From: Antedon mediterranea
Taxonomy: Eukaryota; Echinodermata; Crinoidea; Comatulida; Antedonidae
Assembly (NCBI RefSeq): GCF_964355755.1
Contig: NC_092673.1
Location: forward strand, 19,289,001-19,353,000
Length of the DNA stretch: 64,000 bases
Direction: 5' to 3'
Made by a program: the position numbers and the translations under genes. Below the pieces are notes generated by a model. That model was not told where the DNA came from. It ran no database searches and worked only from the letters and a program-made list of their open reading frames with translations. Each line of letters starts with the position of its first letter. The first letter of the stretch is position 1. Positions 4,704-63,460 of the stretch are shown one piece after another.

Positions 4704-4739
4704 TCCAATGCTTTATGTCGGATCACCTAAAAAAAAAGT

Positions 4740-16320: not shown

Positions 16321-17232
16321 ATAATAATAATATTACAATTGCAACAGCCCCTACTGTTGGGCGGAGGTTTTCACTTGAACTATCAAATAAACTATCTTTA
16401 GACAACTTGTAACGCATCAAACACTTTATTCAATCTCAATGGCGATGGCCATGGCAACTTGCCGATGTGATGAAGATCACGATAATGACGCTGATGATGA
16501 TCAGCTATTGAATAAAGACTGACTTTACTGATAATGGTGATGATGGTTTCAACTAGAAACAAAAGATAATAACATGTTTGTTATTATAACAAGTATTTAC
16601 GTTTAAATAACTCTACGGAGCTCCAAACATAACAACAACAAACACTTTCGTGTAAATAGCTCTTGAATAGAGCCGTGCTCAATCAAGCGGAACGAGCACC
16701 GTCTGCATCACACTGGATTTCATCCCATGACAACCGCGGGAGAATTGCGAACGTTACAACATTATACAACAAGCATGAACATGCTTTCAATCTTGGCCAC
16801 AGATAGGCCTACACTCCACGCACCATTTAGACGGCGTTCGGAGTCAAAATTAACTATAATATAACTTCAATCAACTACTGCATAAATCATAATTTCTTAT
16901 TATTATCACAATATTATTCATTAGATGATTAAAACTTATGTTTGTGTCTCTTCTAGATAGACCTACGCATAGAACACATTATCTTTGTGAGCGGACATAT
17001 TAGACAACTTTTAATTATAAAGGGCGCTAAACTAACAGATGAGCCGTAACAACAATTGTGTTGTTAAAGAAATGACAGCTCAATTTGAAAAGTTTCTAGT
17101 GATTAATATTTCCAAATATGAAAACAGTAAAAATGAATGGCTTTAAATCTCATGGGCTGCAATAGGCAATGTGAACTATATTTGTTATTATTTCTGTTTG
17201 TTATTATTTCTGTTTGTTATTGCAATCCATTG
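16321..17232. other. no gene seen; downstream of the large minus-strand gene
   Basis: Mixed AT-rich DNA with no ORF, RNA gene or tandem repeat that I can support. Confidence 0.4.
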
Positions 17233-17278: not shown

Positions 17279-17778
17279 TCATCTTTGCAACAACTTATTA
17301 ACCTCATCTATTTTGTCTTCACTCAGCAACCCTCGAGGAACAAAATCAAATATCAGACTCCAGCTGTCTGCATACTTCTTAAGGACAGGGAAGTTGTGTC
17401 TTGCATCAAGTCTTCTGATAGCGGAATCCTTAAGATTTTTTCCAAGATTAACAATCTTCATTGTGTGTGCAGGAAATGATACTACCTCACGTTTCTTGAC
17501 GTCTTTGAAAGCAGGAAGCTTTTCTGTGACTGTTGACTCGAAGCCAAATTGTTCAGTTACTTTTATTGCATCAAACAGTACAGACAGATTTGTTTGACTC
17601 AATCGCCCATTCGCAGATAAAAGAGTTAACAAGTCAATTGTACTGGTAACTTTTTTCAACTCTTCAATGTTGCTTACTATTCCTATGAATAGGACTTGTA
17701 GCCTGTTAAGGAGTCCACGTTCATCAAACCATTGTGCAAAGTCTGTAATCAAGTGTTTAAAATCATCCTCTGAGAAAT
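17279..17778 (-). CDS. last exon: death-effector-like domain(s)
   Basis: Acceptor CATATAG|AT, stop TGA at 17279-17281. The first 80 residues follow the DED pattern: LQVLFIGIVSN where DEDs have LKFLxxD, then STIDLLTLLSANGRLSQTNL where DEDs have s-hDLFxxLExxGxLsxxNL. The last 45 residues repeat the final DED helices in diverged form (SWSLIFDFVPRGLLSEDKI), so a second, partial DED is possible. DED assignment is by pattern, not search. Confidence 0.8.
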
Positions 17779-23700: not shown

Positions 23701-26700
23701 AGCAAAGAGATCATGGAGCGGCTGTACCAGAATATACAACACTAAGTATTGTAAAGTTAAAAATTTAGGCGATTCTTGTCAAAGGTCAAGCGCCTTCAGC
23801 CTGCCACGTTTCGATATTCAATATTGAACTTGACCTGACGTGGTTCCACAATATCTTTATATGAAAATGGTAGAATTGATAGGAAATAATAATTAATTCA
23901 AAATTTACCTAAAAATGGTTTTGAACTGAATCGATGGATGTCTTGTCGTTGTATGGTTTTGGTTTGGTTTAAAAGTATGTTCGATAAAGTGCGTGAGCGT
24001 ATTAGAATGAAATGCTAGCGTATACAATGTGCGCGATGTCAAGTTGTGTACTGTGTGATACATGTAAGATTATAAGTGTATCGTACATTGTAGTAGAGCG
24101 AAAATAACATAGGTATAAAGGTAGGATATAAATAAGTAGTATAGGATGTATAGAAAAAGGAATGGGTTGTTAGTTACAGGAAAGATTTTGAATGTCGTGA
24201 GGTGGTTTCCCGATTAATCGTACGATCAAAACGGTACTGGGTATGATCAGGGTAGGGGTATATACCATGTGTTTTCATAAAGGAAGTAAAGTTGTAAGGT
24301 TGAGAGACTTTCTCATATCATAATCTTTATCTACTAGTAACTTACCTTCTCTTGGTTGAGATTGGTGACTGGATGATGTGCTTTCATTTTGGTCCTTATC
24401 ACTACTGCCTAAAAATGATTAAAATGAGATGTACATTTACTAATTAGAAAAATGTTTATAGTACACAATGCCATTGTACAGTCTGTGGTGGAATATTGAC
24501 AGTTACACTGCATACATTGTTTAACTATAGTCTCACATGGAATATTGACAGTTCCACTGCATACATTGTTTAACTATAGTCTCACATGGATGCAATACAA
24601 AGATATAGGTTGCAATACACAGCTAATATGAGATCTATCCAATCCGTCACTTGTCATTGGTCAAATTACTTATGTTGTGTCTACGTTCTTGCATTGTAGT
24701 GATAATCCAAACCTTATCCACATATTATAGTCTTTTCATAGAAAAAACTATTGTAATACTGTACTTAAAACTATTAATACACAAACAAGTTTGTGACAGA
24801 TAAAATTATGTATTACTTATTCAAATATAATAATATGTTTTATAAATATCTGGCCTATTTAAACATTGAACCTCCAACATTAACATTTTTTTTAAACTTT
24901 AACTATCTTGACATTATTAAATAAATTATAGATTGCTAGTACAACTGGTAGGAGGGATGAAGATATCACAGCTAATAGCATCATGTTGTAACAATGTATA
25001 GATTATCAATAATGATTCTGATAGTACTACTACTGGTAAGAGGAATGAAGATATCACAGCTAATAACAGCATGTTGTAACAATGTATAGATTATCCATAA
25101 TGATTCTGATAGTACTACTACTGGTAAGAGGAATGAAGATATCACAGCTAATAGCAGCATGTTGTAACAATGTATAGATTATCAATAATGATTCCGATAG
25201 TACTACTACTGGTAAGAGGAATGAAGATATCACAGCTAATAGCAGCATGTTGTAACAATGTATAGATTATCAATAATGATTCTGATAGTACTACTACTGG
25301 TAAGAGGAATGAAGATATCACAGCTAATAGCATCATGTTGTAACAATGTATAGATTATCAATAATGATTCTGATAGTACTACTACTGGTAAGAGGAATGA
25401 AGATATCACAGCTAATAGCAGCATGTTGTAACAATGTATAGATTATCAATAATGATTCTGAGAGTACTACTACTGGTAAGAGAATGAAGATATCACAGCT
25501 AATAGCAGCATGTTGTAACAATGTATAGATTATCAATAATGATTATGTTGTACTACTACTGATAAGAGGAATGAAGATATCACAGCTAATAGTAGCATGT
25601 TGTAACAATGTATAGATTATCAATAATGATTCTGATAGTACTACTACTGGTAAGAGGAATGAAGATATCACAGCTAATAGCAGCATGTTGTAACAATGTA
25701 TAGATTATCAATAATGATTCTGATAGTACTATTACTGGTAAAGAGGAATGAAGATATCACAGCTAATAGCAGCATGTTGTAACAATGTATAGATTATCAA
25801 TAATGATTCTGATAGTACTACTACTGGTAAGAGGAATGAAGATACCACAGCTAATAGCAGCATGTTGTAACAATGTATAGATTATCAATAATGATTCTGT
25901 TAGTACTACTACTGGTAAGAGAACTGAAGGTATCACAGCTAATAGAAGCAGCATGTTGTAACAATGTATAGATTATGAATAATGATTCTGATAGTACTAC
26001 TACTGGTAAGAGGAATGAAGATATCACAGCTAATAGCTGCATGTTGTAACAATGTATAGATTATCAATAATGATTCTGATAGTACTACTACTGGTAAGAG
26101 GAATGAAGATATCACAGCTAATAGCAGCATGTTGTAACAATGTATAGATTATCAATAATGATTCTGATAGTACTACTACTGGTAAGAGGAATGAAGATAT
26201 CACAGCTAATAGCTGCATGTTGTAACAATGTATAGATTATCAATAATGATTCATTCTGATAGTACTACTACTGGTAAGAGGAATGAAGATATCACAGCTA
26301 ATAGCAGCATGTTGTAACAATGTATAGATTATCAATAATGATTCTGATAGTACTACTTCTGGTAAGAGGAATGAAGATATAACAGCTAATAGCAGCATGT
26401 TGTAACAATGTATAGATTATCAATAATCATTCTGATAGTACTACTACTGGTAAGAGGAATGAAGATATCACAGCTAATAGCAGCATGTTGTAACAATGTA
26501 TAGATTATCAATAATCATTCTGATAGTACTACTACTGGTAAGAGGAATGAAGATATAACAGCTAATAGCAGCATGTTGTAACAATGTATAGATTATCAGT
26601 AATGATTCTGCTAGTAATTACATTACATAATAATCATTTGTTTTTGGGTCAAATAAATAAATGAAAATAAACTTGTATATATATTACTCTTACCTCCAAA

Positions 26701-29700
26701 TAAACACTTGTAACGTAAAACATCCATCGTAACAGACTTGCCAGTTTTGGTGCATGTCAACTTCTCGTCATGGAAATTTTCAAGATTTTGAATGTGCTTC
26801 TTTTCTGATGTATCACTACATACACCACACAGTATGCATCTCTCAAAATGAATCCCTCTTCTACCACCATCTTTAGTAGGTTCAAATGACTTTTGAATTG
26901 TTAACAAAACCTAAAGGTACAAATTGAATGGCAAACTGCAATTAACACTATATGACAATAAAAACAAACAATATAGCAAACGTTGTGTTCACTAAACATT
27001 TACAATACAATAAAACCAATAACACAATAACCAAAAAATAGAAGGGGGAGGGGAAGGGGGATTTGGGGTTGTTCCCAGAAGAAAAGGGTATAGTACTTCT
27101 GAGACTGAGTATTTGAACCATAGGCCCCTACCCCCCACTTCCACTTAATGGTCGGAGATGTGGCAAGGGAATTTTGTTTAAGGACACCCCTAGATGGGCG
27201 GAAAAATTCATGATATGGCAACTTTAGTTTGCCAGAAATGACACTCCACTGAGCGCACTAGCAAACAGCAAAACCCATCTCATTCTTCCCACACGGGGCG
27301 GTAGACACATGCAACTAACAATATATAAAATTGTTTGCGTTCAATAAGAACGTCAGGGCAAGTCCCCGCTAAAGGCACTTCCGATACGATCATTATAAAC
27401 GCTAATAAGGTCCCCAAAAAATTGTTTGTTTGTTTGTTTTCCCTGGAAAATTGTTAGAGGGGTGGGTAGAAAAAATGTGTTTTTGTTTGTTTTTGTTACA
27501 TATCTTTCGCTATCTTATAATAGTTTCACATGCAAGTTATTCTCTCGTATACACATGCGTAACAGAGCGTAAGCAACGTAATTGAATTTAAGAGATCGTC
27601 TCAATTATTAGACATATTCCCCACAATGTGGTACCCTCCCCCCCCCACCCCACCCCTACGATATATGAAATGATAACAAACCTCTTTACATGCGTCAGAA
27701 GAGGGTTCATCATTACTTGTTCTATTACAAGCAGGAGTTCTTTTAATAGTCACCTAAAAAAGAAGAAAAGTGATGTTTTGATATTTGAATTGAGTTTATG
27801 CTTAGAATAAATTATGACTTATTTCACAACAAATTATATGATACAGCACCTTTAACAAGAACTTTCTTTCATCCTCCGTAGTCACAAATTTGACAAGAGA
27901 TAAGGTCACATGATGATCTTGGTCAAAGTAAAGTTCAGCATGGTTATACAAGAGTATTGGGTCAACTCCTTTCTTTTGAAATTTGTTGAGGAAATCAATA
28001 ATCATATATGGAAACAATACATCTGGCAGATATCCCTTAAAGTCGTAATAGACACTGATAGATTGTGAATCATCAGGCACTGGTTTCACTTCACTTGATG
28101 TCTTAAAAGCAAGGCGTAGTGGCACAAAGAATGATCGCTTTCCAACAGATTCCTGAAATTGTTGATTTGTAAAATGGCATTCAGATTTCTTTTAGAAAAT
28201 TAAATATCATATCCTGTACATGTTAAAAACATCTTTCAGTAGATAGTTTAATCAAAATATGTCCGAACCCTACAATAATTTTAAAATTTAAAGTAAAATT
28301 TCACCAATTATGTATCATACCAAATTTTTTTTCTATTTCATAATCTTGCATACAAAACATGTTAGAAAAGATAACTGAACAAAACCTACTGTAGATGTAC
28401 TTGCCACATCTTGGCTGCTGGTTGTCTTCCTCTCACAAATAAAACCTAATTGAATCATCAGTTCTACAAGAAACTCAAAATTCTTTCCGTCGTCAACTTT
28501 ACGCTTTTTCCATAATCTTCGCAACAACTTTTCTTCCAGTATGCCCTTGTCAAGCTTATCAAACGCATCGATATACGTGGCCGGCTAAAAAACACCACCA
28601 ATTAGCCATACTTAGTATTTTGTGTTTATTTAAAGTTATCAAACAATTAGAGTCTAAAGGGATGCACATGTATAAAGACTTGTAGATGCAATTACATCTA
28701 ATATACAATATACCCCTCAATGTTAAATTAAGGAAACTGTCAGACATTGCTTTTGATACTACAGCACCTATAGGAATTCAAATGTACCTCAATTATTTCC
28801 TAAAAAAACACTGCATTAACATTTTCATGAGACTACTTACTGGAAATTCTGGTGGAATGACAGTTACAAAAGCAGTAACAATTTCAACCAGCTGCATCGG
28901 ATCTAACACCGCTTTATCTTTCAATAATTTGTTGTCAGGCCTGTAAACAATTTCACCAAGATCGTACAAAAAGTTTAGAAGAAAGGATTGTTTTTTTTCA
29001 TCTGCAATACCATTCTTACTTGCCAGCATTTTGAGCTAAAGAAAAAATTGTTTACTATTCAGATACAACTAAAATATCAAAAATATGAAACCAAAGGTAG
29101 GTATACATTTACAACATTAGTTTTGTCCTTTACAGCCTGAAATGTTTTGAAATTTACTTGATAACATGTACTGCATAACTTTGGATCTGAAGGAAAACGT
29201 CTCTCTCAGGATGGGGGAAACGTAACTGCAATTTTTCTCACAGAATGTAATTGTCAGTGTTGCAATGCAAATATTCCATAAAAAATACTAGGCCGATGTA
29301 ATTGCTCTGATTTTTTTCAGATAGGAAACCATAACAGCATGGATAGGATTATATATTTTTATATTATATTACATTAACATTATTTTACCATTCAGATTTA
29401 GAGCAGTGAAGATGAAAATATGACAAAAATATTATCAATATTATTATATAGTACTGTAGTTATATATAATAGTGGGTAGAGTCTTTTGTTTATACTTTTT
29501 TAAATACTACTATTTCCAACATATTTCTATTCTGAAAACAAAACACTGAGGAATGATGCCAATTAAATTTACCTCTTCAACTGGACACAAAGAAAAATGT
29601 TTTTTTCTCCTTAGATCATGTAGATCACATCGAAAACGCATCCACTTTAAAGGAACTTCTTTCTCTAAAGCAGTCATAAGGTCATCAATAACTTTTTTAA

Positions 29701-32700
29701 GATCACTAAAGCTCTTATCTGTTGTTTCTTGGCTGTTTTCAACGGCAAAATATACGTTGTACACATGTTTTATAAACTCTTTCTGTTTAAGTGCATCTCG
29801 AATCATTTTAAAGGCCTTCTTTGTCTGGTTGTAAACAATTTAAATAAATGAAAACATGGGGTTAAACTGTAATTTCTTTTAAATAATATCTAAATACTTC
29901 AAGTCCTATTAGAGTACTGTAAAGAATACATTCATATAACAACTTTTGATATGAATGTATTCGATACAGTACTCTAGTAGCTAGTTTCTTTACATTAGCT
30001 TTTAGAACAGAAATGTATACTTGATTGATTGCTAATTTTAATAATGCAAGTATTAACCTCATCATTTTGTTGTTTTTCAGTCTCACCAAGCTTACCCTTA
30101 TGTGTACCTACAATAAGGATAGTTGGTTGGTGAACTTCATTCTCCTCATCTTCTTTCACAATACGACTATGAGAATAAACTGACAGGATGTAAGATAATA
30201 TGAACTGGAGATTGGTCCAATGATGTTTACACTTTTGCTGTAAAAAAGAAAGACTAGTTTAAAAAACATTTTATCTTTGTTCTAGTAAAATGAAATTAAG
30301 AAGTAAATGATTTCTAACCACAATTAAAATGGTTAGGTTTCAAATATGTAAATGTATGCAGCTCATTTGGAAGGTATGAAATAAAACTCTTTGTAATGCA
30401 TAAAATATATAGCAAAATACTTACTCCATTGGAATCAATATAAACAGCAGGATCATTGAGGTCTACACTTAGGTCGAACACTACAATATAAAGTGCTTGT
30501 AATGTCATGAACATCTGCAAAAACACAATTTGTTTTTATTCAAATATTTGATTAATATGCTTTAAGCAAAGATTGTATAGCACCGCTACGCGGCGCAAGA
30601 TAGGTGACTGCACGACTATCATTTTATTCTGTAGGTTGTCTTTTGATAAACTGTGTTTATACATTTACTATTGATACTCTTTTTAATGAAGCATTTTTCT
30701 AGTACAAATTCATATAAAACTGTTAAAATCAGTTATGATTGAAAACAGTTACTGAAAATACTTTTTTTATTGATGTAGGCAAAATTAGTAATAACACTTT
30801 ATATAAAGCAGTACCATGGAAAGATGTTTGCGATTACTGAATGAACAAAATAAACCTTGGTCATACCATTATGTTAGTATATACAGAGACATTTCATTTT
30901 AACTGTGTATAGTATTTAAACAATGTCAATATAATATTAACTTCAAGGGAAATACATATATTATAACTTACCCGATGTATACCATGGTATATTAATTGAC
31001 CTCCATTATCCCAGATGTTAAATGTTTCTTCCAAGGGGTCCTCCTTTTTTTCCTCAACTTTCTTGATTACATCTTTATCTAACTGCTGCTCTGTATCAAA
31101 TGTAACAGCTTTAGTAGCTGTATAAGAACCTGTAGTGGAAACAAGTGTTTTGGTCACTCTCACCACATGTAAACAAACATCACTTCTAAATTATTGTAAA
31201 AGTCATTAACATATTGTTATAGTTGTTCTGATTATCATCACTGTTTTAATTGTCATTATCATTATTGCAGTCTTCATTATCATTATCATTGTTACACTGA
31301 GTCACCATCATTGTTATCATCATTATAGTTTTAGTTGACACTGTCAGAGTAGAGGTAGAAAAGTATGACTGTCACCATAATTGTTACACAGGTTAAAGGT
31401 TGCCTTACCTCCACCTCTGATCACATACATTTAATAATTTTATAGGAAAATTAAAAGTTACTTTAAATTGGAAAATCTAATTAATAATCTAATTAATTCA
31501 AATAACTACAGCACAAACTTAATATCACAGAAATTGCAAATTAGCTACAAAATGTAATGTATATGTATTATGTAATATGTAATAATAATAATTAGAATTT
31601 AATGGAAAGTTACATACTATCATTTTTGTAATCATTGTTGTCGTTATTTTTGTAATCATCATTGTTGTCATCCTTATTGTAGTCAACAACAATACCATCA
31701 TCATCCTCGACATCATCTGTAGGTGGTTTCATGTCAATCTGATAAATAACACAAAAAATGGATATAAAAAAGAAATAAATGTTTATTCAAAGTTAAATAC
31801 AGTTTTGTTTACAATTTAATATAAGAGAAAACTAATATTATTTACTCTCAAAAACAAAACCAATTTGTTAGAGTAAATTTTTAAAGGATTGGAGCAAAAA
31901 AAAAAATGAAATAGCTGCTCATAATGCATCATGATTCATTTAGAAAGAAAGCCTAAGTGACTGGTTTGCAATAGTCCTGTAGGTGCTACTTTATTCATTT
32001 TATGTTTTCATTACACAATTATTTACATACGTTTATAGTTTTCTTTTCTCTCAGTTTGTCAGTGACGAATTTTGTATACTGTTTTAAAGGATTACCTGTA
32101 GAGAAAAAAGACATTTGCACATATTATTACAGCAGATACATTGATAGGTGACAATACTTTAACTGATTGATTAATTAATGTAAAATTACAGTACATCAAC
32201 AAACAATAGGTTGCGTGTTAAAGGATCATGGAGTAACAATTGGTGTATGTATGTGAAAATATGACTGTTGACATCATACTACAGTTGTATGCATTTATTG
32301 AATTCCATTCTACATCTCAGTTTCATTGTGGGCCTGTTTGTGTCTATGATAATGAGATCAAAGATAAATATTGTTACATTGACTATGATGATGGGAAGAG
32401 TAATATGCTAATTTGTATTCATGTTTACCACTATCAGCTTTAGCCTCTTTCCATGTTGTGCTTACAGTCCTTATCACTGCTATGCCATCTGTAACTTTAT
32501 GTTCTTCCTCAAATCTGAGATACATATAATAATAATATAATAATTTGAAACCAACAATGAATGTCATTCATTTTTAGTGCTGTAAAATTCAATTTTCTCT
32601 TTTTAATTATAGATACCAGTAGTTACTATTTCAATAGTCTTTATTTATAAAATACACATTTTAAATCAGTTATTTAGTCAACAATTAAAATGATCTTTCA

Positions 32701-35700
32701 TTTAAAATTACAAAACAATGTTAAAATTTAATTCTATTATCTATTATTGTTATAATTAGGCAGTACCTACATGTATTTTGTAATTTCAATTTTACTGTCC
32801 AACTACTTACATCTTTCCAAGACAGGCATTTATGAGGCATGTTTTACCCACTCCTTCCTGTCCAATCACCTTAAGCATTCCAAGATTGACTGCGACAGAT
32901 CCTCCTTTCAAAGCTTCCTTGTAAGCTTCCTGATACTCTAATTCACGAGCAGCAATATCAGATGGAATATCTGAAAATTGAATCAAGATTTTAATAGATT
33001 TTTAAAACATCTGGAGTAAATAAAGTTAAAAAAAAAAAAATCATCAATCAAGCATGCCACATAAATCTGCAAACTAGCTCCATTCCATTATTACAGTATT
33101 TTGGATGAAAACAATCAACTGTTTTATTTATGATAAATAAAATCTCTCCATTTGTTATTAGTTGCACACTTTTTCGCCTTTTTACAGTACCGCACAGAAA
33201 TAATGCTTTTTTTAAATAACATTAGCGTCTAATTCTCTCCTTACTGAAATCCCATTTTAATCACAATTGTGTTAAATTATATATAGATACAATCATACAA
33301 CATACAGCAGCTCTTGTGATTCTTATTAAACTCACCACTCTCTGGCTTACGAAGTTTTGTTATCTGTTTGTCACTTGTCGGTTTCTGAAATTGTGTTTGA
33401 AATTGCTCATCAACAGTACTTGGTAAATCTAAAAAAATACCAAAACAAAAATATTACATATTACATATTTTCATAAAAAACACTATATTAAAAGTCACAG
33501 CTTGGCAAAACTCTTGAATTGTCATATGGTATCTTTAAACTTTTTCAATGGTATAAGGTTATATAAAAGCTTGTGGGTGACTGTGTACAAGCAATCGACT
33601 ATACATGAAAATGGTAAACCTCATTCATTCTGGATATACTATAATAATAATGTATTTTTTTTAACTAAAATGTATACAGTTAACAACTACAGTTATTAAT
33701 TATGTCCTAAAAAATGTGTGGAACTCAAACTCATCCAAACATATAGGCGTTATGCAACATTTTTTGACAGAGATCCTGAATCTAAATCATTTCTAGCACC
33801 ATACGGTTGATTAGGATTTCAATGTGTAAAGTGAAAATAAAGTAATCCTGAAATGAATAACTGGTATGATTCAGAATTTGCCAGTAGGAATTATTGACCA
33901 CCTATCGTAAGTTTTTAATATGCCTTGAACTTTTTAAATGTTTTTATTTATATTCTGTTTTATGACCAGTAACCAATTTTGTTTTTATACCTGTGTGAAA
34001 ACACAATAAAGATAACTTGAACTTGAGCCCACCATGGTTTGGGCTGAATTTTGCCAATATAGACCTGGAATTGCATTTTTAAAGGCCTACAATAAAGGCA
34101 CTGTTCTTTATACACTTGGTAGAGCTTGGTTATGCTTTGTGGGACTTGGTGTTTAGAATAACACATGTATGATGCTTAATTTTAGATACAGAAAAATAGT
34201 ATTCTTAAGCTGGCTTAAAAATGTGTGAAGAAAATTCATTCATTGTGGAAACAAAAAATGGGATTAACAAGAAAATGTTTTATTTTTATATTCAATATTT
34301 ATCTCCTCCTATCGTAAATTGTTTTCCTCGAAGGCGAATGTGGGAAGGAGGAGTTTGAATTTGTCTATTGGTTTTACCCATAGTAAAAAAATTAGTAGAA
34401 TTTAAGTAGACTTATTAGTAGAAATAGCTCTATTTTCAGTAGTTTTTTAGTAGACCTTTTTATCTCGACTACTAAGGATTTTAACTGAATGAGTCAACGA
34501 TGGAACGACTACTTCCCAGCTATAAAATAGATAGTTGATTAATATTTAACTGGCTATTATCAGTTTCTTTATAGTCTATTGATAGGTCATTGGTAGTCTT
34601 GTATAGCTATAATAAGTAGACAGTAGATAGATAGATATGATACTCATAGATTTCTAATAGCTATCTGGTAGTCCATATCTATCTATTGTATAAAATAGAT
34701 AGTTTATTAACAGTTACTGGCTATTATCAGTTTGTTTATGTCTATTAATAGGTTGCTGGTAGCCTATTGTATAGCTATTGTAAGTAGACAATAGATAGAT
34801 GCATACAACTGTGTTACTCACAGATTAAAAATAGTGAAAAATCTATCTAACACTATTAGTGGGGGTTTTGAATTATGCTAATGAGGTAAAACCTATTAGG
34901 AACTATCTAAATTCTACCTAAAATCTACTTATTAGTAGGTGCTTAATAGGTAATAGAGCTATATCTATTAAGGGGATAACTTTTAAGGCGAATAGATATA
35001 GAGATATATCTACTAAGAACTTTTAATTAAGCGCCATCATTTACGGTAGTAACCTGGTACGCACGGCGCGCTGAAAATCCGGTGATTCAGCTCCTCGAAG
35101 AAGACGAATTATTATTTAAAATGTGTGAAGGAAATTCATCCATTGTGGAAACAAAAACTGGGATTTAACAAGAAAATTAGATTTTTATATTCAATATTTA
35201 TCTCCTCCTATTGTAAATTGTTTGCCTTGAATGTGAATATCAATTGTACATAGCATTATATATAAAATAGATTAGATTTAAAAAAAAAAAATCTACATTT
35301 TACATTTATGTGCAATTAATAAAGTTCAAATATTCCTTAACAATGCATGTCCCCCGTCCGATTATTGTAACTAGTTTAAAGTGAAGCCTCCTATCAAAAG
35401 CCCCTTGAGGTTTATTGAAGGTCCCTTTCATCTTAAAATCATCATCATCATCATCATCATTAAAATCTCTTTATTTTTGTTATGTGTACTGTTTTGATGT
35501 ATTGAATAAAGAGATTGATTTGATTTGAAAAATGATTTATTTAATATTTTTATTTACAAGGAATTTTAAAGTTTGCGTTTTTGTGTTATTTTTATCGTAT
35601 TTATAGCAAAATAATTTACATCTTGCAACATATCACAACTTCCATGTATACTACTATCCCACTGAATTATTTAATCTATAATAAACCTGTGAATGATATA

Positions 35701-38700
35701 TCATAAATGTTAATTTTCTTTATCTGGACATTCTTCTTCACTTGATGAGAAATCAAATCTTTATCGTTTGTAATGAAAACTAGTTGATCCTAAAATTTCA
35801 ATAATTAAAACTTCACTTACCTTCTAAGAAGTTTAAAATTTCAGTTTTACTTTGCTCCTCTATCCACCTGTTACTTTCTAAAACTGAGACAAGTGTATTT
35901 CCATCCTATTAAAAAAATGGGTTTAGTTAATAGTAGTTTTGAGAAATTATTGATATACAATATAACACACTTTAATTACGCATCACATACATACAGTATT
36001 ATGTCATGGCTCAAACATTTACCATCTAGAGATTGGATGAAAGAGCATCATGTGATAACACATAGATTTACTATTTTTTAACATTGGTTGTAAATTAGGA
36101 CGTGAATAGAAATTACTATTTGCTAATAAATGACATCAACTTGTACAGTGCGCCTATAACACCGCCTTCAACATTGAAAGATGGAGGAGAGAGATAAATT
36201 TAATAAAAGTTTACTTTGGAAATGTAGGTAGATGTGTTAAAATGTTTGAGCCATAATAGAAAACAACAAATAGTTTTACTATAAACTTTCAAAGCAAATA
36301 ATATTTGGATACTATCCAGAAACAAATGAAATATCCCTGTATAATCCCAGTACACTACCTTCTTTGCAATGTTGCTGGTGTATAATACTGACAACAAACA
36401 TTATGTGAAATTGGGTTTTTTTTGTCAACCCAAACCACAGCAAAAATTACTGCTAAATAATGTGGTAAATAATCATAAATGTCGACTATTGATAAATGAA
36501 AACAAAATATAATATCTTACCATGGATCAAATGTAGTATAGTGTCATTAAAATCTACTTACTGTACAATATCAATCACAAAATTTGAACATTAATAATTT
36601 AATACATATTTTATAAAATTGTACAAACAAATGTTTAGATGTTAAACATAATGTATGAGGCCAATAAGCAGTTAAATGAATTTAAATATAAATTTAGGTA
36701 ATGGGAAATTTCAGTAAATTAAGTGCAACTTCTAGAATTTTTACTCAATGGTAGAGAAAGTTGGTACATCCTTTCAGTACTGATTTTTAACACCCAATGA
36801 AACCAATATCATACTTAAGATAAGTTAGATATTAACGATAACAAATTTAGTTTAAACCATTTGCCTCAATGAAAATCATATCATATCATGAAGCCTGATA
36901 CCATCCCATCATCCAATGTACCAAAACAGGAATTTGGTGAACAATACCGTGTAATAAACAAAATTAAGGTAATTCTCAGGATGACAATTATATTTGACTA
37001 CATAAATCCCATCATATCTGTATTTATTTGCTTTGTGTACAGTGTGACTTGGACAATTTTTAGTTATTTCCCAAAGTTTATTTATTCGAGAACCATTTGT
37101 GGGCACTTAATACTAGTATATTCAATTTTAACTAGCAACTTTATAGAATCATTTTTCCAAAAAAGGTACGGGACTGTTTGAAAAGAATAATTTCATATTA
37201 TGAAAAAAAAGATCCTAGGTTGGAAAAGGATCTCTTTAAGGCCATGTTCATAATTAGGTGGGTAGATGGACAGAAGCATTTTTTTTATAAGGTAAGGGAG
37301 GGAGCAGGTTATTCATTAATAATTATTTTTTATTAAAATTAGATTCTATTAATTTTTTTAACATACATTTTTTTATTTGTTGTTTTATTATTAGTCAATG
37401 TAGTTGTCCCATTTTATTTCATATTTACAATTAATTAGACCATTGTCAATCGTTGCTATCTTTACAGCTACATAGGAGCAATTTATATTTGTTTTACGGT
37501 CAAAAATATGTAAACAAAATTATACTGATTCACCTGAACATATAAAAAAAGTAGATTTTTTTGTTCATTAAGAAAATTAAAGATGTATGTTATGTGATAG
37601 GAACAATGCCATGCAATAAACAAAATTAAGTTAATTCTCAGGATGACAATTATATTTGACTACATAAATTCCATCATATCTGTATTGCTTTGTGTACAGT
37701 GCAATTTTCAGTTATTTACCAAAGTTCTTGTATTCAAGAAGCATCTGTGAGCACTTACTAGTATATTATATTTTAGCGAGAAATCATTTTTCCAAAAAAG
37801 TCATAAGATAAGAGACGGAACTTTTCTTAAAAGCATTCAGTTTGAAAAGAATAATTTCATATTACCTTTCTTTTTTAAATTGCATTACTCAAACAATTTA
37901 GATTTTGAAAACTAACAAAACATTGTTTACATTTCTCTTCCTTTTGTGGCCAAATGTTTGCACAAAAAGATCCTAGGTTGGAAAAGGATTTCTTTAAGGC
38001 CATTTTCATAATTAGCTGCATTTTTTTTGTAAGATAAGGGAAGGAGCACATTATTAATTAATAATCGTTTTTTCTTAAAATCAGATTCTATTAATTTTTT
38101 TAACATAAACATTTTTAGTTGTTTAGTAGTTGTCGCATTTTATTTCATATTTACAATTAATTAGACCGTTGTCAATAATTGTTAATTAATAACTGAATAT
38201 ATTAAAAAATAGATTTTTTTGTTGATTAAGAAAATTAAAGATTTATGTTATATGATAGGTAACTGTACACTTTAAATCAGATCATAAATCATATATAACT
38301 ATTTAGTTATTTTTTTATTTGGTTTGTTTTAATCAAATTTGATTTTTGTTAATGTGCTTACTTTTTTCTCTCATTAAATGGTTTACTTTACAGATCTATA
38401 TAATGTTAGCTTATTACACTAGCAAATCCCTGTACATTTACCTCATTTTGCAATGCTACTGGTGCCCCATGCTGAATGAGACAAGTCACTATTTCTAAGG
38501 TAGCTGTACATACACGCCTCAGATATGAATGTAATGGAGTGTCACCATCCAGGAAAGGAATCATAATGAAGTTTATAAATACTGACAACAGACATTATGT
38601 GAAATTGTTTGTTTTTTGTCAATACAAACAACAACAATTGCTGCTAAATATTATGGTAAATAATCATAATTATCATTATTAATAAATGAGTAGAACAAAA

Positions 38701-41700
38701 TAGAATGGTTTACCACAGCATATCTATAGAATGTTAGCTTCTTACACTAGCAAATCCCTGTACATTTACCTTATTTTGAAATGCTACTGGTGCCCCATGC
38801 TGAATGAGACACGTCACTATTTCTGAGGTAGGGTCTCTATGCCTCAGATAGTAATGTAATAGAGTGTCACCATCCTGGAAAGGAATCATAATGAAGTTTA
38901 TAAATACTGACAACAGACATTATGTGAAATTGTTTGTTTTTTTGTCAATACAAACAACAACAATTGCTGCTAAATATTGTGGTAAATAATCATAATTATC
39001 ATTATTAATAAATGAGTAGAACAAAATAGAATGGTTTACCACAGCATATCTATAGAATGTTAGCCTATTACACTAGCAAATCCCTGTACATTACCTTCTT
39101 TTGCAATGTTGTTGGTGTATAATACTGACAACAGACATTATGTGAAATTGGGGGTTTTTTTGTCAACCCAAACCATAGCAAGAATTACTGCTAAATAATG
39201 TGGTCAATAATCCTAATTGACATGATTGATAAATGAGAACAAAATAGAATATCTTACCATGGATCAGATCTAAAGATTGTTAGCCTATTACTATTACAGA
39301 AGCATTTTTTTGTAAGGTAAGGGAGGGAGCAGGTTATTAATTAATAATTATTTTTTTATTAAAATCAGATTCTATTAATTTTTTTGACATAAGCATTTTT
39401 ATTTGTTATTTTATTATTAATCAATGTAGTTGTCCCATTTTATTTCATCTTTACAATTAATTAGACCATTGTCAATCATTGTTATCTTTACAGCTACATA
39501 TGACCAATTTATATTTGTTTTACGGTCAAAAATAAGTAAACAAAATTATACTGATTCACCTGAATATAAAAAAATGTCCAATTGCATTGCTCGAACAATT
39601 TTAGATTTTGGAAACCACTATAAACTAAACATTATTTAGTTTTACATTTCTCTTCCATTTGTGGCAAAATGTTTGCAAAAAAAAAAAATGCTGGAAAAAG
39701 ATCTCTTTAAAAGGCCATATTCAATCTGTAATTAGCTGGATATACTGACAGAAGTATTTTTTTGGAAGGTAAGGGAGGGAGCAAGTTATTAACAATTAAT
39801 AATTCTTTTTTATTAAAATCAGATTCTATTAATTTTGTTAACAATAACACAAACATTTTTGTTTGCTATTTTATTATTTGTCAACAAACTGTAGTTGTCC
39901 AATTTTATTTCATATTTATAATTAATTAGACCATTTTCAATTGTTGTTATCTTTACAGCTACATATGACCAGGGAGTTGTCATTTTACAACTCCCTGATA
40001 TGACCAATATATATTTATTTTATGGTAAAAATATTTAAACAAAATTATAGTGATTCACCTGAATATAAAAAATTACAAGTAGATTGTTTTTGTTCATTAA
40101 GAAAAAAGATATATGTTATTTGATGAATAACTGTATACTTTAAATCAGTTATCATAAATCATATATAACTGTTTAGTTATTATTTTAATTTGATTTCTTT
40201 TAATAAAATTTGATTTTTGTTAATGTGCTTACTTTTTTCTCTCATTGAATGGTTTACTTCAGCATATCTATATAATGTTAGCTTATTACACTAGCAAATC
40301 CCTGTACATTTACCTTATTTTGCAATGCTACTGGTGCCCCATGCTGAATGAGACAAGTCACTATTTCCAAGGTAGCTGTAAATCCCATCACCAGATATGA
40401 ATGTAATAGAGTGTCACCATTCTGGAAAGGAATCATAATGAAGTTTATAAATACTGACAACAGACATTATGTGAAATTGTTTGTTTTTTTTTGTCAATAC
40501 AAACAACAACAATTGCTGCTAAATATTGTGATAAATAATCATAATTATCATTATTAATAAATGAGTAGAAAAAAATAGAATGGTTTACCACAGGATATCT
40601 ATATAATGTTAGCCTATTACACTAGCAAATCCCTGTACATTACCTTATTTTGCAATGCCACTGGTGCCCCATGCTGAATGAGACACGTCACTATTTCTAA
40701 GGTAGGGTATCCTCTCCCCAGATATGAATGTAATGGAGTGTAACCATCCTGGAAAGGAATCATAATGAAGTTTATAAATACTGACAACAGACATTATGTG
40801 AAATTGTTTGTTTTTTTTGTCAATACAAACAACAACAATTGCTGCTAAATATTGTGATAAATAATCATAATTATCATTATTAATAAATGAGTAGAACAAA
40901 ATAGAATGGTTTACCACAGCATATCTATATAATGTTAGCTTATTACACTAGCAAATCCCTGTACATTACCTTATTTTGCAATGCCACTGGTGCCCCATGC
41001 TGAATGAGACACGTCACTATTTCTAAGGTAGGTGTATATCCACCCCACAGATATGAATGTAATGGAGTGTTACCATTCTGGAAAGGAATCATAATGGAAT
41101 TTATAAATACTGACAACAGACATTATGTGAAATTGTTTGTTTTTTTTTGTCAATACAAACAACAACAATTGCTGCTAAATATTGTAGTAAATAATCATAA
41201 TTATCATTATTAATAAATGAGTAGAACAAAATAGAATGGTTTACCACAGCATATCTATAGAATGTTAGCTTATTACACTAGCAAATCCCTGTACATTTAC
41301 CTTATTTTGCAATGCTACTGGTGCCCCATGCTGAATGAGACACGTCACTATTTCTAAGGTAGGTGTATATCCACCCCACAGATATGAATGTAATGGAGTG
41401 CTACCATTCTGGAAAGGAATCATAATGGAATTTATAAATACTGACAACAGACATTATGTGAAATTGTTTGTTTTTTTTTGTTAATACAAACAACAACAAT
41501 TGCTGCTAAATATGGTGGTAAATAATCATAATTATCATTATTAATAAATGAGTAGAACAAAATAGAATGGTTTACCACAGTATATCTATAGAATGTTAGC
41601 CTATTACACTAGCAAATCCCTGTACATTTACCTTATTTTGCAATGCTACTGGTGCCCCATGCTGAATGAGACAAGTCACTATTTCTAAGGTAGGTGCAGA

Positions 41701-44700
41701 ATATCCAATCACCAGATAGTCATGTAATGGAGTGTCACCAGACTGGAAAGGAATCACAATAAAGTTTATAAATACTGACAACAGACATTATGTGAAATTG
41801 TTTGTTTTTTTTGTCAATACAAACAACAACAATTGCTGCTAAATATTGTGGTAAATAATCATAATTATCATTATTAATAAATGAGTAGAACAAAATAGAA
41901 TGGTTTACCACAGCATATCTATAGAATGTTAGCCTATTACACCAGCAAATCCCTGTACATTACCTTATTTTGCAATGTTACTGGTGTATAATACTGACAG
42001 ACGTTATGTGAAATTGGGGGGTTTTTTTGTCAACCCAAACCATAGCAAGAATTACTGCTAAATAATGTGGTCAATAATCCTAATTGACATGATTGATAAA
42101 TGAGAACAAAATAGAATATCTTACCATGGATCAGATCTAAAGATTGTTAGCCTATTACTATTACAGAAGCATTTTTTTGTAAGGTAGGGAGGGAGCAGGT
42201 TATTAATTAATAATTATTTTTTTAATTAAAATCAGATTCTATTAATTTTTTTGACGTAAGCATTTTTATTTGTTATTTTATTATTAATCAATGTAGTTGT
42301 CCCATTTTATTTCATCTTTACAATTAATTAGACCATTGTCAATCATTGTTATCTTTACAGCTACATATGACCAATTTATATTTGTTTTACGGTCAAAAAT
42401 ATGTAAACAAAATTATACTGATTCACCTGAATATAAAAAAATGTCCAATTGCATTGCTCGAACAATTTTAGATTTTGGAAACTACTATAAACTAAACATT
42501 ATTTACATTTCTCTTCCATTTGTGGCAAAATGCTTGCAAAAAAAAAAATGCTGGAAAAAGATTATTCTTTTTATTATTCTTTATTAAAAACAAACCAATT
42601 GGCAGCAAATCTGCTGAATTGCATGGTAAGGAACAATATACATTCAAAAGACAAGAAAAGTATAGTCATTATAAAACAAAATAATCGCAATTACAAAATA
42701 TATTTAAATGTAAACATAAAGTTTAAAAAAATAGTCAAATTGCAAGGATATAGTATATACATTATAACTTAATTACAGTATAAAAATATAATCTTAAATT
42801 TAAGTTGCAGTATTTACATTGGTTTCTTAATTAAAGTCGACTTCAGACAATTAAATAATTACAATTAAACATTTACAAAAACATCAAATACAAAATTAAA
42901 TGAGAATTAAGAATAAATTGAGTCAAATTCAAGAAATTTCTACTAGGCCAATATGTCAAATTAATTAATATCTGGTTACATTATACATTTATTTTCTTTT
43001 ATTATTTAATCAATACTGTTGAGGCAGCGAGTGAGAAACGGGATTGCACTGTTTCCATATCTATTTGTCTTATTTTTGGGGACCTGGTATGTATTACTTT
43101 TCCGTAAGGCCATATTATGCGTACTCATATTTCTCGGAAACCACTCAGCATATCTATACGCATTAGCACATTTCTTTGCAAATTCAATGCAAAGTTGGTA
43201 ACGTCTCTCAGTCATGGTATGGAGTCCCAACTGCTTCAGTGATTCCGTGTATGATACGTAATCCGCACCCACGATAATGCGGCATGCTCTCTTTTGGATT
43301 CGCTCCAATTGGTAGGTCTGTTCCTTGGTTATACTGCTATGCCAAACCGGGACAGCGTACTCACTTATTGGGCGAACATAACACGTATACACGGAGGTCA
43401 AATCTTCAGTCGGGACACCAAACCGTTTGAGACGTGATAGCATGTATAGTCGTCGACTACTTTTACTAATAATATCATTAAGGTGGGACTGCCAGCCAAG
43501 ATTGGACTGGATAGTCAAGCCCAGAAGCCTGGTCTCAGACACCACCTCGAGCTCCACCCCAGCGATTTGAAGGTGAGGAGGGTTAGGCGGTTCCTTCATA
43601 AAACAAACCTGCATAGCCTTGCACTTACTGGGGTTGAGCTCGAGACGGTTGTCCGTTGCCCAAGCATCCAGATCCTGAACATCCACTCCAATCTGGCTGG
43701 GTTGATTTGCGGGACGAACTTCTACAAGGCTGAGGTCATCAACATACTTAAAACTTTCAGCCAGAGACTCCTCAGAGGCATTATTGATAACTACCATGAA
43801 GATTATGGGGCCTAGCTTGGTGCCTTGTGGGACGCCACAGGAAAGCGTCTCCCACCGTGACAAGGCAGAGTGGTATTGCACTCGTTGGCGACGAGATGTA
43901 AGGAAGTTTGTTATCCATGGCAGTAACTCGCTTCTGACACCAAGCTCGAAGAGTCTCTGAATAGCTAAAGTATGATCGATACAGTCAAACGCCTTGGAGA
44001 AGTCCGTCACAATAAGGGTGCCAACATTCTTACCCTTGTCTGTACCTTTAAAAAACAAATCAAGTATTTCAATAAGACAATGGGCAGTGGATGATCCTTT
44101 TATGCCACCATATTGGTTACGATCAATTTCTTTACCTATATCTTCCATAACCCAGTTGGAAACAAATCCCTCGCATACCTTCGCAAGAATCGATGTCAAA
44201 GATATTGGTCTTAATTTAGAGATTGAGGCAGGGGTAGTCTTTGGGATAGGGGAAATTGTGGCATCCTTCCACATTTTAGGAACAATTCCCTCTTTTAGAG
44301 ATGAGTTAAATAAGTCACAAACGGGAACGCTGAACTCGCACGCGAACTCTTTAAGAAGTCTCCCAGGGAGGTCGTCGGGTCCAGCCGCTTTCTTACTTTT
44401 CAAATTTTTCAAGTTATTGTACATTTCCCACACTTCAATCCTAGGTGGAGCATTTGCAGGTAGAAAGGTAGGTAATTGTTTTAAGTTGATTGGGGGTCTA
44501 CCTTGGGTGACAGAAGCAAATTCATTACTTATAGCTTCTGATCTGTGTACGTAAACTATGCAATCTAAAAAATCGAACCATGCTAAAATTCCCTGGCCAC
44601 TCAAATCAAGATCTTGCAAATGATATCAATAACCACTTTGCATCTGTGTGCCGACAGCTTCCCCCAGTTGATGTAAATGCTCTTCCTGCATATTTGCCTT

Positions 44701-47700
44701 CACCTGAACCCCCGCCAAAAATTTTTCCTGGACAAGTCAGACGATTGATTAATAAACTAAAGTCAAAGAAGTCTAGTCACCCTGATGACTTGCCAATTAA
44801 ACTTATAAAAGAATTCGCCTTTGAAATTGCTACTCCACTTGCCCATATTTTTAATTGTTGTCTTAATGAAGGTGTATTTCCCGAGTTATGGAAGTTAGCA
44901 ACAGCCATTCCTGTTCCAAAAGTTCCTAATGTGACATCATTTCAAGACCTCAGGCCAATTTCACTTACCCCCATCTTTGCCAAGTTGTTTGAGTCATTCC
45001 TTACTGATTGGGTGACTAGTGACATTCATCAACATTTAGATATTAAACAATTTGGTTGCCGTAAAGGCTCATCTACTAGCCATTATCTTGTGGACATGAT
45101 TAAGTCTGTAATTAGTGATATTGAAAAAGGTGATTCTTTTGTGGATATTTGTGCCGTTGATTTTACGAAGGCCTTCGACCGAATTGACCATACGGTCATT
45201 GTTAGAAAGCTTGTCGACATCGGAGTGAGAACATCTATTATTCCCACCATCTGTAGCTTTCTGACGGATCGTAAAATAAATACTAAACTTAGTTCATCCT
45301 TTTCCCCTTATGCCAACATCACATGTGGGATTCCACAGGGTACAAAGCTTGGGCCAATTTTGTTTCTTATATTAGTCAATGATATCTCTATGGAAGGCTG
45401 CAGATGGTGGAAGTATGTTGATGATCTCACTCTTGGTGACACTGTTAAACATGGTAATGCTCCTAAACTTCAATCTTGTCTTGATGACCTTACTGAGTGG
45501 TGTGATACAAATCACATGGTCCCTAAACCCTCTAAGTGTCATATCATGAGAGTTAATTTTTTGAAAAGAAATATTCCCCCTCCTAATTATTACCTTAGCG
45601 GTACAACACTTAATGTTGTTTCGTATATGAAGCTCCTTGGACTTATAATCCAGGATGACTTGAAATGGGATAATAATGTCAGTGACATGGTAAAAAGAGC
45701 ATCCAAAAGGTTGTATACGTTATATATCCTTAGAAGGGCCAATGTACCAGTTCATGATATGATATCCGTTTATGTTTGTTATATTCGCCCAATCTTAGAA
45801 TACGCCTGCCCTGTGTGGCATGGAAGCATCAATAAGGCCCAAATATCGACCATTGAAAGAGTGCAAAAGAGAGTTTTACGTATTATTCTGGGTCCCGCTT
45901 TCCTTACGTATGATTCTTGAGCTTACTGATATGACCACTCTCGCATCCAGACGAGAGACGTTGATTCAAAAATTTGGAGAAAGGCTCTTGAAATCGGAAT
46001 TGTACAGAACTATTTTGCCCGACTACCGCATTATTAATAGAGAGCTTAGATCAACCACGGTAGATAAACCCCTAATTAATATACCTGTTTGCAGAACTAA
46101 CCGTCTTAAGACTTCGCCTGCCCTTACCATAAGTAGAATCCTTAATTCAAACAGTACCTGATCACGCTGAAGATGGCTATGTTATAAATATTTACATATA
46201 TTGGCCTATGCATTTGTATATAAATTTTGGAATCTTTTTAACATAACATAATTTTATTTTTTTAACTGATTTTTTCAAATTTTTTAATGTTTTGTATAAA
46301 TTTTTGTATTTTTTTAAATGTTTCTGTTTCCATATATTTATATATATATTTTTGTAAATCAACAATTTCAGCCTTCGGGCTGCATGTTTTTTATTGTATA
46401 AACCTGAATAAATAAATAAATAAAAAAATAAAAAAAAATCTCTTTAAAAGGCCATATTCAAACTGTAATTAGCTGGATATACTGACAGAAGTATTTTTTT
46501 GGAAGGTAAGGGAGGGAGCAAGTTATTAACAATTAATAATTCTTTTTTTATTAAAATCAGATTCTATTAATTTTGTTAACAATAACACAAACATTTTTGT
46601 TTGCTATTTTATTATTTGTCAACATACTGTAGTTGTCCAATTTTATTTCATATTTATAATTAATTAGACCATTTTCAATTGTTGTTATCTTTACAGCTAC
46701 ATATGACCAGGGAGTTGTCATTTTACAACTCCCTGATATGACCAATATATATTTATTTTATGGTAAAAATATTTAAACAAAATTATAGTGATTCACCTGA
46801 ATATAAAAAATTACAAGTAGATTGTTTTTGTTCATTAAGAAAAAAGATATATGTTATTTGATGAATAACTGTATACTTTAAATCAGTTATCATAAATCAT
46901 ATATAACTGTTTAGTTATTATTTTAATTTGATTTCTTTTAATAAAATTTGATTTTTGTTAATGTGCTTACTTTTTTCTCTCATTGAATGGTTTACTTCAG
47001 CATATCTATATAATGTTAGCTTATTACACTAGCAAATCCCTGTACATTACCTTATTTTGCAATGCTACTGGTGCCCCATGCTGAATGAGACACGTCACTA
47101 TTTCTGAGGTAGGGTATAGACTCCTCAGATGTACATGTAATGGAGTGTCACCATCCTGGAAAGGAATCAAAATCATGAAGTTTATAAATACTGACAACAG
47201 ACCTTATGTGAAATTGGGGTTTTTTCACAATACAAACAACAACAATTAATGCTAAATAAAGTGGTAAATAATCATAATTATCATTATTAATAAATGAGTA
47301 GAACAAAATAGAATGGTTTACCACATCATATCTATAGAATGTTAGCCTACTACACTAGCAAATCCCTGTACATTACCTTCTTTTGCAATGCTACTGGTGC
47401 CCCATGCTGAATGAGACAAGTCACTATTTCTAAGGTAGGTGCAGTATATCGACCCCGCAGATATGAATGTAATAGAGTTTCACCATACTGGAAAGGAATC
47501 ATAATGAAGTTTATAAATACTGACAACAGACATTATGTGAAATTGTTTGTTTTTTGTCAATACAAACAACAACAATTGCTGCTAAATATTGTGGTAAATA
47601 ATCATAATTATCATTATTAATAAATGAGTAGAACAAAATAGAATGGTTTACCACAGCATATCTATAGAATGTTAGCCTATTACACTAGCAAATCCCTGTA

Positions 47701-62412: not shown

Positions 62413-63460
62413 ATGGATTCCGAAAGCGATTTAGAAAGTGTTTCATCAGATAGACCTAGTAGTAGTAGTTCATCATCAAGTGATGAGGAAAATGGTACTG
62501 GCCTTATAATACCATATAATTTCGAACCACGTTTTGAGGAACATGAATTACAAGACATTGATGAAGAAGCCCAAGGTGAAGATGTTGACATGATGGCTGC
62601 ACGCCTGGATAATTTAGAATGGTAGGTGTTCCCCTTGTGGTTGTTGTAGTGAAGCGTCTGCTTGATTGGGCTAGGCCTAATTAATCAATCGAAGCTAGAG
62701 CTACCTCAGTGTTTCTAAATTCTAAATATACAATCGGTTTTTTTTTTTCAAATTTTGTGAGATGCCATACGTTAATATAAAGTCCCCATCGTAATTTGTT
62801 TGATGATTATTAGATGGGTCGGATTTGGGACGGTGGTTTAATAATAGGCTACTCCTTGGGCTTGGGTTTGGTTATAATAATAGATGGACTAGGCCTAAAG
62901 TATTAATATTAATATTCTGGTCATAGTTCAAATGGGCATTTGAATTTCACTTGCTTGAGTGACTGCTGATATGATCAACTAATTATAATCATAATAATTA
63001 GTTTTATAATGACTAAATACATGTTTTCATCTTGTTCAGGTGTTCCTGTGAACATTGCCAAATCATGGGCTCAGGGGAAGAGTGCATCTGCTGCAAGGAG
63101 TGCGAAAACACAAGTGCTAAACTTGAAGACAATGTCAATCTGTTCAACAATGATGCTCCATTCTCCTGCATCACAAATCATCCAGGTTTCAAGTCTGTTG
63201 CTCTTGACCCTTGGGTGCTGGAAGTAGCATGGCTTTCGTATAAGCAACACTATGATAAGAAAGTTATCTATAACGGACCAAAAAACAAAAAGTACCGTCA
63301 CATATCGTACAGACAGTATGCCCGATGGATACATGGATATGTCGGAAAAAATATCCGTATAGTGCTTCCGTCTTGTGTTGTCTCTTGCATAAGAGCACAT
63401 TTCCCACCACCTGGAGATGACCCGGTGTTTACAGGATTTAAATTACCTGACCTAAATTAA
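62413..63460 (+). CDS. P2X7 intracellular (ballast) domain protein, two exons
   Basis: Exons 62413-62621 and 63040-63460 (donor GAATG|GTAGGT, acceptor TTGTTCAG|GTG, phase 2) encode 209 residues. The N-terminus is acidic and Ser-rich (SSDRPSSSSSSSSDEEN). Exon 2 matches the cytosolic ballast domain of P2X7: CSCEHCQIMGSGEECICCKE, CITNHPGF, YRQYARWIHG and LPSCVVSCIRAHFPPPGD. In P2X7 these Cys/His positions bind zinc and the domain binds guanine nucleotides. Here there are no channel helices, so this is a soluble stand-alone version, a form found in many invertebrates. The ATG is the first in the frame and precedes the acidic tract. Function of stand-alone copies is not established. Confidence 0.85.

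Follow-up and report, generated by a model that had tools for sequence, protein, structure and literature searches.

An array of variable ankyrin exons in a Roc-COR gene of the crinoid Antedon mediterranea

An ankyrin exon array within a Roc-COR gene

A stretch of 64,000 nucleotides from the genome of the crinoid Antedon mediterranea (contig NC_092673.1, positions 19,289,001 to 19,353,000; hereafter the window, in whose own numbering all positions are given) contains a tandem array of ankyrin exons that is read in frame into a Roc-COR protein. An initial annotation of this DNA had placed nine such exons at 38442-47487, and the minus strand does contain the full set of nine, with lengths that are multiples of three in 9/9 cases and with the inter-helix loops it had listed. 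They measure 105, 108 or 111 bp and are in phase 0 at both ends in 9/9 cases, one repeat corresponding to one exon in constant phase, and Pfam Ank matches nine stretches once the exons are joined (E 2.5e-43). The exons are as follows:

47377..47487, minus strand, ankyrin exon E1, loop RGRYTAP
47051..47155, minus strand, ankyrin exon E2, loop RSLYP
41632..41742, minus strand, ankyrin exon E3, loop VIGYSAP
41301..41408, minus strand, ankyrin exon E4, loop WGGYTP
40970..41077, minus strand, ankyrin exon E5, loop WGGYTP
40644..40748, minus strand, ankyrin exon E6, loop GRGYP
40314..40421, minus strand, ankyrin exon E7, loop VMGFTA
38770..38874, minus strand, ankyrin exon E8, loop RHRDP
38442..38549, minus strand, ankyrin exon E9, loop RRVCTA, acceptor CTG and not CAG

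Of the eight introns between these exons, six are 220-223 bp long, in keeping with the ~220 bp given in the initial annotation, whereas the other two measure 1439 and 5308 bp. The acceptor of E9 (38550-38552) is CTG, where the other eight ankyrin exons have CAG, and E9 is for this reason probably skipped; as it is in frame, its skipping would leave an eight-repeat protein. A fixed loss would explain the changed acceptor, and so would a polymorphism or an error of sequencing. Pairwise amino-acid identity among the nine repeats has a mean of 0.794 (range 0.71-0.97, 36 pairs), with E4 and E5 sharing one loop and 97% protein identity. No further ankyrin exons were detected by Pfam in read-through minus-strand frames of 33.0-38.4 kb and 48.4-64 kb, a scan that left out 17.3-33 kb and that can miss units, as it returned 7 Ank stretches against the nine exons of 38.4-48.3 kb.

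The suggestion that the array feeds a signalling protein holds, since the ankyrin exons join, in frame, the coding sequence of a Roc-COR protein, and the interval 38442-47487 does contain the array, but the gene reaches far outside it. Our gene model, on the minus strand from 53251 to 17279, has 28 exons and encodes 1302 amino acids; its phases chain, it has no internal stop, and its internal splice sites are all AG/GT with the E9 acceptor as the sole exception. Besides the array, it consists of the following parts:

53244..53251, minus strand, exon 1 with the start codon (ME and the first two bases of R), ATG and GT donor, beginning MERNKLEEAL as in the relative P0001
52902..52998, minus strand, exon 2, N-terminal cap NKLEEALWYGSDLQTIKQICKTQPDLVKSINK, AG/GT, phase 2 to 0, similar by eye to the P0001 N-terminus
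35821..35905, minus strand, C-terminal cap exon DGNTLVSVLESNRWIEEQSKTEILNFLE, phase 0 to 1, similar by eye to DGNTSVNVLES of P0001
33336..33428, minus strand, linker exon LPSTVDEQFQTQFQKPTSDKQITKLRKPES, with nearly the same stretch in the relative P0003 by eye
26694..32970, minus strand, thirteen exons for the Roc GTPase, COR-A and the following region, all AG/GT in one open frame
24346..24408, minus strand, linker exon GSSDKDQNESTSSSHQSQPRE, from the gene model
17279..17778, minus strand, last exon, weakly DED-like and with the stop codon, from the gene model and Pfam

In the spliced model Roc (PF08477) scores 51.7 bits against a cut-off of 27 (1.3e-13) and is followed by COR-A (PF16095) with 48.2 bits against 35.3 (1.3e-12), and by these domains the predicted protein belongs to the ROCO (Roc-COR) family. 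The best Protein Data Bank matches, for query positions ~171-217 in the Roc part, are 4wnr (a leucine-rich-repeat protein), 3dpu, 6hlu and 8r4b (Rab family proteins) and LRRK2 chains. Neither a kinase domain nor a death domain is among the 8 Pfam families matched on the model at E 0.01, and the same matches include no leucine-rich repeat (LRR), NACHT or NB-ARC; NCBIfam gave only matches far below cut-off. The introns of the model also hold tandem-repeat arrays at 18293-23117 (85 bp x 57), 24940-26616 (88 bp x 19) and 49814-52762 (71 bp).

Distribution and kind of change among the units

The array had been described as one in which coding differences are concentrated beside near-constant introns and a near-constant helix 2, and the aligned units agree with this. 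Diversity in the first 51 exon columns is 0.21, against mean pairwise differences of 0.034 in the upstream intron (215 columns) and 0.037 in the last 20 codons; the first ten codons stand at 0.133, the loop at 0.364 and the 70 bases 3' of the exon at 0.064, higher than upstream. Loop divergence is far above intron divergence, whereas equality of the two would have spoken against the initial annotation. In the codon alignment 26/215 intron columns are variable, compared with 10/30 in the first ten codons, 13/18 in the loop and 7/60 in the last 20 codons (Fisher p against the intron 0.005, 6e-8 and 1.0, respectively). Across upstream intron and exon, diversity peaks in a 51-column stretch that begins 2 bases ahead of the exon and ends at column 48, a density reached in 0/20,000 column shuffles. 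In a wider scan that included 90 downstream bases, bins from ~150 columns on were also diverse, which we tentatively attribute to the tail of the alignment and to homology running out at the ends of the array. Variation at residues 1, 3 and 8 and in the loop is borne out, although the list was incomplete, as codons 5 and 9 vary too; codons 2, 4, 6, 7 and 10 of the same exon half are invariant. The feature is real, non-random and functionally suggestive.

A predicted structure of the relative P0022 has a mean predicted local distance difference test score (pLDDT) of 56.6 overall and of 83-91 in blocks of residues 11-140. In its repeat starting at residue 82, helix 1 spans 86-93, the turn 94-98 and helix 2 99-107, a layout in which helix 1 would hold codon 8 and loop positions 1-2, the turn would hold the loop from position 3 on, and codons 1 and 3 would belong to the hairpin flank. 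The variable positions therefore fall, in this predicted fold, on the turn and helix-1 face to which they had been assigned. Four of them are among the positions varied in designed ankyrin libraries.

The balance between replacement divergence (pN) and synonymous divergence (pS) was calculated for each part of the exon. The first ten codons have pN 0.169 and pS 0.040 (pN/pS 4.3), with pS near the intron value of 0.034, the loop has pN 0.404 and pS 0.218 (pN/pS 1.9), and the last 20 codons have pN 0.023 and pS 0.082 (pN/pS 0.28). Maximum-likelihood estimates of omega, the ratio of replacement to synonymous rates (dN/dS), were obtained on an intron tree, a star tree and an exon tree. For the first ten codons they are 5.9 (p 0.028), 8.8 (p 0.009) and unbounded (p 0.004), respectively; for the loop 1.2 (p 0.74), 1.8 (p 0.23) and 4.0 (p 0.03); for both parts together 2.25 (p 0.065), 2.9 (p 0.007) and 6.7 (p 0.0004); and for the last 20 codons 0.25-0.36 (p 0.02, 0.02 and 0.16 on the three trees). 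A dN/dS above 1 is therefore supported in the first ten codons on all three trees, but in the loop alone, where the ratio exceeds 1 in all converged fits, significance is reached on the exon tree only (1/3 trees). Neutral simulations on the star tree were as extreme as the observed data in 1/200 cases for the first ten codons, 1/200 for both parts and 20/200 for the loop.

Relative to the intron, on the intron and star trees, the replacement rate is 5-7x in the first ten codons and ~15x in the loop, and the synonymous rate of the loop is itself 9-12x; with loop synonymous sites raised in this way, deeper ancestry or exchange with other arrays contributes besides selection. A codon-by-codon test in which the synonymous rate was fixed at the intron value (17 variable codons, p values uncorrected) put codons 1, 3 and 8 and loop positions 1-4 above the intron rate (p <0.005) with either the intron or the star tree, whereas with the exon tree two of these sites fall short of 0.05, codon 3 at 0.055 and loop position 4 at 0.067. 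In the same test codon 5 reached p 0.009 on the star tree, and an L/S change that opens helix 2 (codon 2 of the last-20 part) gave p 0.02 on both the intron tree and the star tree. Minimum numbers of changes at codon positions 1, 2 and 3 are 16, 11 and 6 (17 codons, p 0.04). When units are left out one at a time, pN stays at least 2x pS in the first 17 codons, and removal of E9 changes little. In a four-gamete test 44/105 informative site pairs fail, so the units have been shuffled or repeatedly mutated, and all tree-based figures are therefore approximate. Overall, replacement-driven change in the first ten codons is well supported, and the total divergence of the loop is extreme, its raised synonymous component suggesting that older ancestry or an exchange of segments between loops acted together with selection. 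The proposal of diversifying selection on a recognition surface accordingly fares well in the first ten codons and less well in the loop.

Relatives in Antedon and history of the array

The closest relatives of the model are other Antedon mediterranea proteins. The first 12 listed have 65-84% identity over 49-70% of the query, and none is identical to the model. P0001 has two repeats of the array style by pattern, and others of the relatives start at or just before Roc. A common repeat style, in which xGxTPLHxYL is followed by a variable loop and a helix 2 beginning [LS][DE]I[VL], links P0016 (8 repeats), P0207 (13), P0022 (3) and P0001 (2), with P0016 and P0207 lying on two different contigs, neither of them that of the top relatives. 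With repeats of this style in all four, the expanded variable loop is recurrent in the gene family, the cases so far being from Antedon; P0018, the only relative from Anneissia japonica that was examined, has canonical ankyrin loops by eye. Among the eight repeats of P0016, codons 1, 3, 5 and 8 and loop positions 1-4 vary. P0207 (1042 aa) mixes two repeat types with loops of 6-23 residues and has no Roc match; its C-terminus resembles the tail of the family by eye, yet has no Pfam DED. A C-terminal DED-like match, in no case above cut-off, was found in 4/7 family proteins (the last exon in the window, P0002, P0003 and P0016) and not in P0007, P0018 or P0207, although P0007 has a DED above the Pfam cut-off (45.5 bits) in an N-terminal stretch. 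P0001 (1681 aa) contains by eye what appear to be two Roc-COR units, possibly tandem genes fused by annotation. Two further protein searches, of which the best 120 of 1658 and the best 120 of 3027 matches were considered, returned mostly long ankyrin proteins of other organisms.

The array has a readable history. The sequence at 39152-40243 and that at 42019-42562 joined to 46430-46999 are identical at 1074/1085 ungapped positions (99%; 1121-column alignment), and the array therefore grew by a recent block duplication, one copy of which later took up a retroelement. The two features that mark this history are:

42563..46430, strand not assigned, retroelement insertion in the E2-E3 intron, inside the recent block duplication, with RVT_1 in two open reading frames, edges approximate
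39083..39130, minus strand, exon remnant, an exon 3' end fused to intron, by eye, edges approximate

The intron that received the insertion is the one of 5308 bp. The reverse-transcriptase frames of the insertion lie on opposite strands (43009-44625, minus; 44535-45917, plus), perhaps a nested or inverted pair of non-long-terminal-repeat elements. Five partial exon remnants were recognized by eye in or beside the array (near 48450, 47720, 41970, 39100 and 36380), which suggests that array units also die. Duplication, conversion and alternative exon use had been named as sources of the variation. Growth is documented by the 99% identical block and exchange is indicated by the four-gamete failures, though repeated mutation could contribute to the latter. 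Alternative exon use is possible, all ankyrin exons being in phase 0.

Interpretation and comparable systems

We propose, with a probability of about 0.6, that the gene is a member of a crinoid ankyrin-Roc-COR family whose ankyrin domain is an evolving recognition surface, likely for non-self, coupled to defence or cell death. Because each repeat is one phase-0 exon, the reading frame survives when a unit is added, removed or skipped. Amino-acid change clusters at the hairpin flank (codons 1 and 3), helix 1 (codon 8 and loop positions 1-2) and the inter-helix turn, with helix 2 and the upstream introns nearly unchanged. The ligand of the variable face would itself be changing, a microbial, viral or self/non-self molecule being the likeliest candidate, and its binding would be relayed through the Roc-COR GTPase to the death-fold-like tail, which may recruit partners of a defence or cell-death pathway. 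In the germ line, point mutation together with unequal exchange and conversion between units would supply variants on which diversifying selection would then act, and this combination of diversifying selection and unit shuffling seems to fit the sequence best. Of this mechanism, the recognition surface has the stronger support; its non-self ligand and its output, and hence immune sensing as the initial annotation had it, we infer.

Concerted evolution offers a non-adaptive explanation, in which older diversity survives in the 5' half of the exon and conversion makes the introns and helix 2 uniform. The raised synonymous rate of the loop (9-12x the intron rate) speaks for it, the four-gamete failures suggest exchange, and the exon and intron trees disagree. 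However, the first ten codons combine synonymous divergence near the intron value with ~4x more replacement divergence, the diverse stretch is bounded by the splice site and the start of helix 2, which would not be expected by chance of the edges of conversion tracts, and P0016 is variable at the same positions, so that we consider this explanation rather unlikely. Relaxed constraint, under which a dispensable helix 1 and loop drift and helix 2 alone is constrained, could draw on the remnants and the lost acceptor of E9 as signs that some units are dispensable, but its ceiling is the neutral intron level, which the replacement rate exceeds 5-7x in the first ten codons and ~15x in the loop, and codons 2, 4, 6, 7 and 10 of the same half are invariant; we regard it as very unlikely. 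Hypermutation targeted locally to the exon 5' half would account for the sharp local peak of diversity and for the raised synonymous sites of the loop. It is highly improbable given that third codon positions change least (16, 11 and 6 changes; p 0.04) and that synonymous sites of the first ten codons are near the intron level.

A different rival accepts an adjustable specificity acting through the Roc-COR switch and assigns it a non-immune role, for example in recognizing fast-evolving self partners in fertilisation or allorecognition. The sequence names no ligand, and ROCO proteins are described as active in many pathways (PMC6337361). Against this stand the C-terminal DED-like matches, sub-cut-off as they are, in 4/7 family proteins, and allorecognition is itself still a non-self function. 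DEDs in general are associated with signalling in cell death and immunity. Repeat-diversified receptors elsewhere are candidate immune or non-self receptors (PMC4986451; PMC11378527), and overall we think a non-immune role unlikely.

Several observations nevertheless weigh against the recognition reading. Exon boundaries were picked by hand, with open frames, AG/GT sites and similarity to A. mediterranea proteins as guides, and single edges may therefore be off. Pfam DED scores 18.7 bits (E 0.002) on the last exon scanned alone, far below the cut-off of 35.9, and DED is absent from the Pfam list for the whole model at E 0.01. The precomputed Pfam column gives no ankyrin for the 14 best relatives, which means that the closest paralogues, as annotated, do not generally carry it, and some helix-2 positions vary too in P0016. 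For the loop alone, the excess of replacements is non-significant on the intron and star trees (p 0.74 and 0.23; 20/200 simulations) and the synonymous rate is raised. Shuffling violates the tree assumption of the codon models, and the sample is nine units and 17 codons only.

Similar layouts have been described in distant lineages. In brown algae, LRR-ROCO genes encode one LRR per exon in one phase, in tandem arrays and with alternative splicing (Teng et al., 2024, PMC11378527, which cites Zambounis et al., 2012), and four sites on the concave face are reported to be under positive selection in these proposed immune receptors (PMC11378527). The crinoid gene resembles this system in being a ROCO gene with one structural repeat per exon in constant phase and a tandem array, and differs from it in having 105-111-bp phase-0 ankyrin exons instead of 72-bp phase-2 LRR exons, an inter-helix loop that varies in length and a weakly DED-like tail. 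As to the diversifying selection that marks the algal genes, the first ten codons are significant on 3/3 trees here and the loop alone on 1/3. Fungal NOD-like receptors (NLRs) have highly conserved ANK, TPR or WD repeats that change in number and for which concerted evolution was proposed (Dyrka et al., 2014, PMC4986451), and in Podospora NLR ankyrins the positively selected or polymorphic positions lie, with one exception, on the concave face, in the inner helices and the hairpin/loop (PMC4986451). Internally conserved ankyrin repeats with variable residues on the concave face and hairpin/loop are common to both, but the fungal switch is NACHT or NB-ARC whereas the crinoid switch is Roc-COR, and the 79% mean identity of the crinoid repeats is below the cut of 85% over at least 100 aa in the fungal paper, the value being pairwise here and from another program there. 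Each ankyrin repeat of the crinoid array is moreover a separate exon. Among animal ROCO proteins, LRRK1 and LRRK2 have Roc-COR and ankyrin repeats and DAPK1 has Roc-COR and a death domain (PMC6337361). The crinoid protein shares their Roc-COR core; unlike DAPK1-type ROCO proteins, its model has no Pfam match to a kinase or death domain. The repeats of DAPK1, LRRK1 and LRRK2 are not known to form hypervariable arrays.

The predicted crinoid protein would therefore work like the brown-algal and fungal systems, yet it falls outside the LRR-ROCO and NLR groups. The new combination is that of a ROCO switch, an ankyrin repeat and an echinoderm host, in a layout otherwise known from brown-algal and fungal candidate immune receptors; no report of a hypervariable ankyrin exon array in an animal was found among the records listed in a literature search of titles and abstract openings, with most subscription journals outside it. 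It is a tentative thought, less likely than not, that crinoid ankyrin-ROCO receptors with death-fold-like tails are the animal counterpart of the brown-algal system, their arrays of one repeat per exon being a germ-line (perhaps also splice-level) engine of diversity that differs between individuals and couples non-self recognition to defence or cell death. If so, a variable cytosolic receptor would have been arrived at by similar means in distant lineages, and a role would be suggested for animal ROCO genes without an assigned function. The array is a concrete animal locus for testing whether differences in recognition from one individual to another come from repeat arrays.

Elsewhere in the window, a further tandem-repeat array (12320-16321, 100 bp x 40) lies downstream of the gene model. 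An open stretch of 365 residues at 3618-4712 on the minus strand matches a PHD finger and, below threshold, an OTU protease, and another at 63017-63457 on the plus strand matches the P2X7 receptor intracellular domain family.

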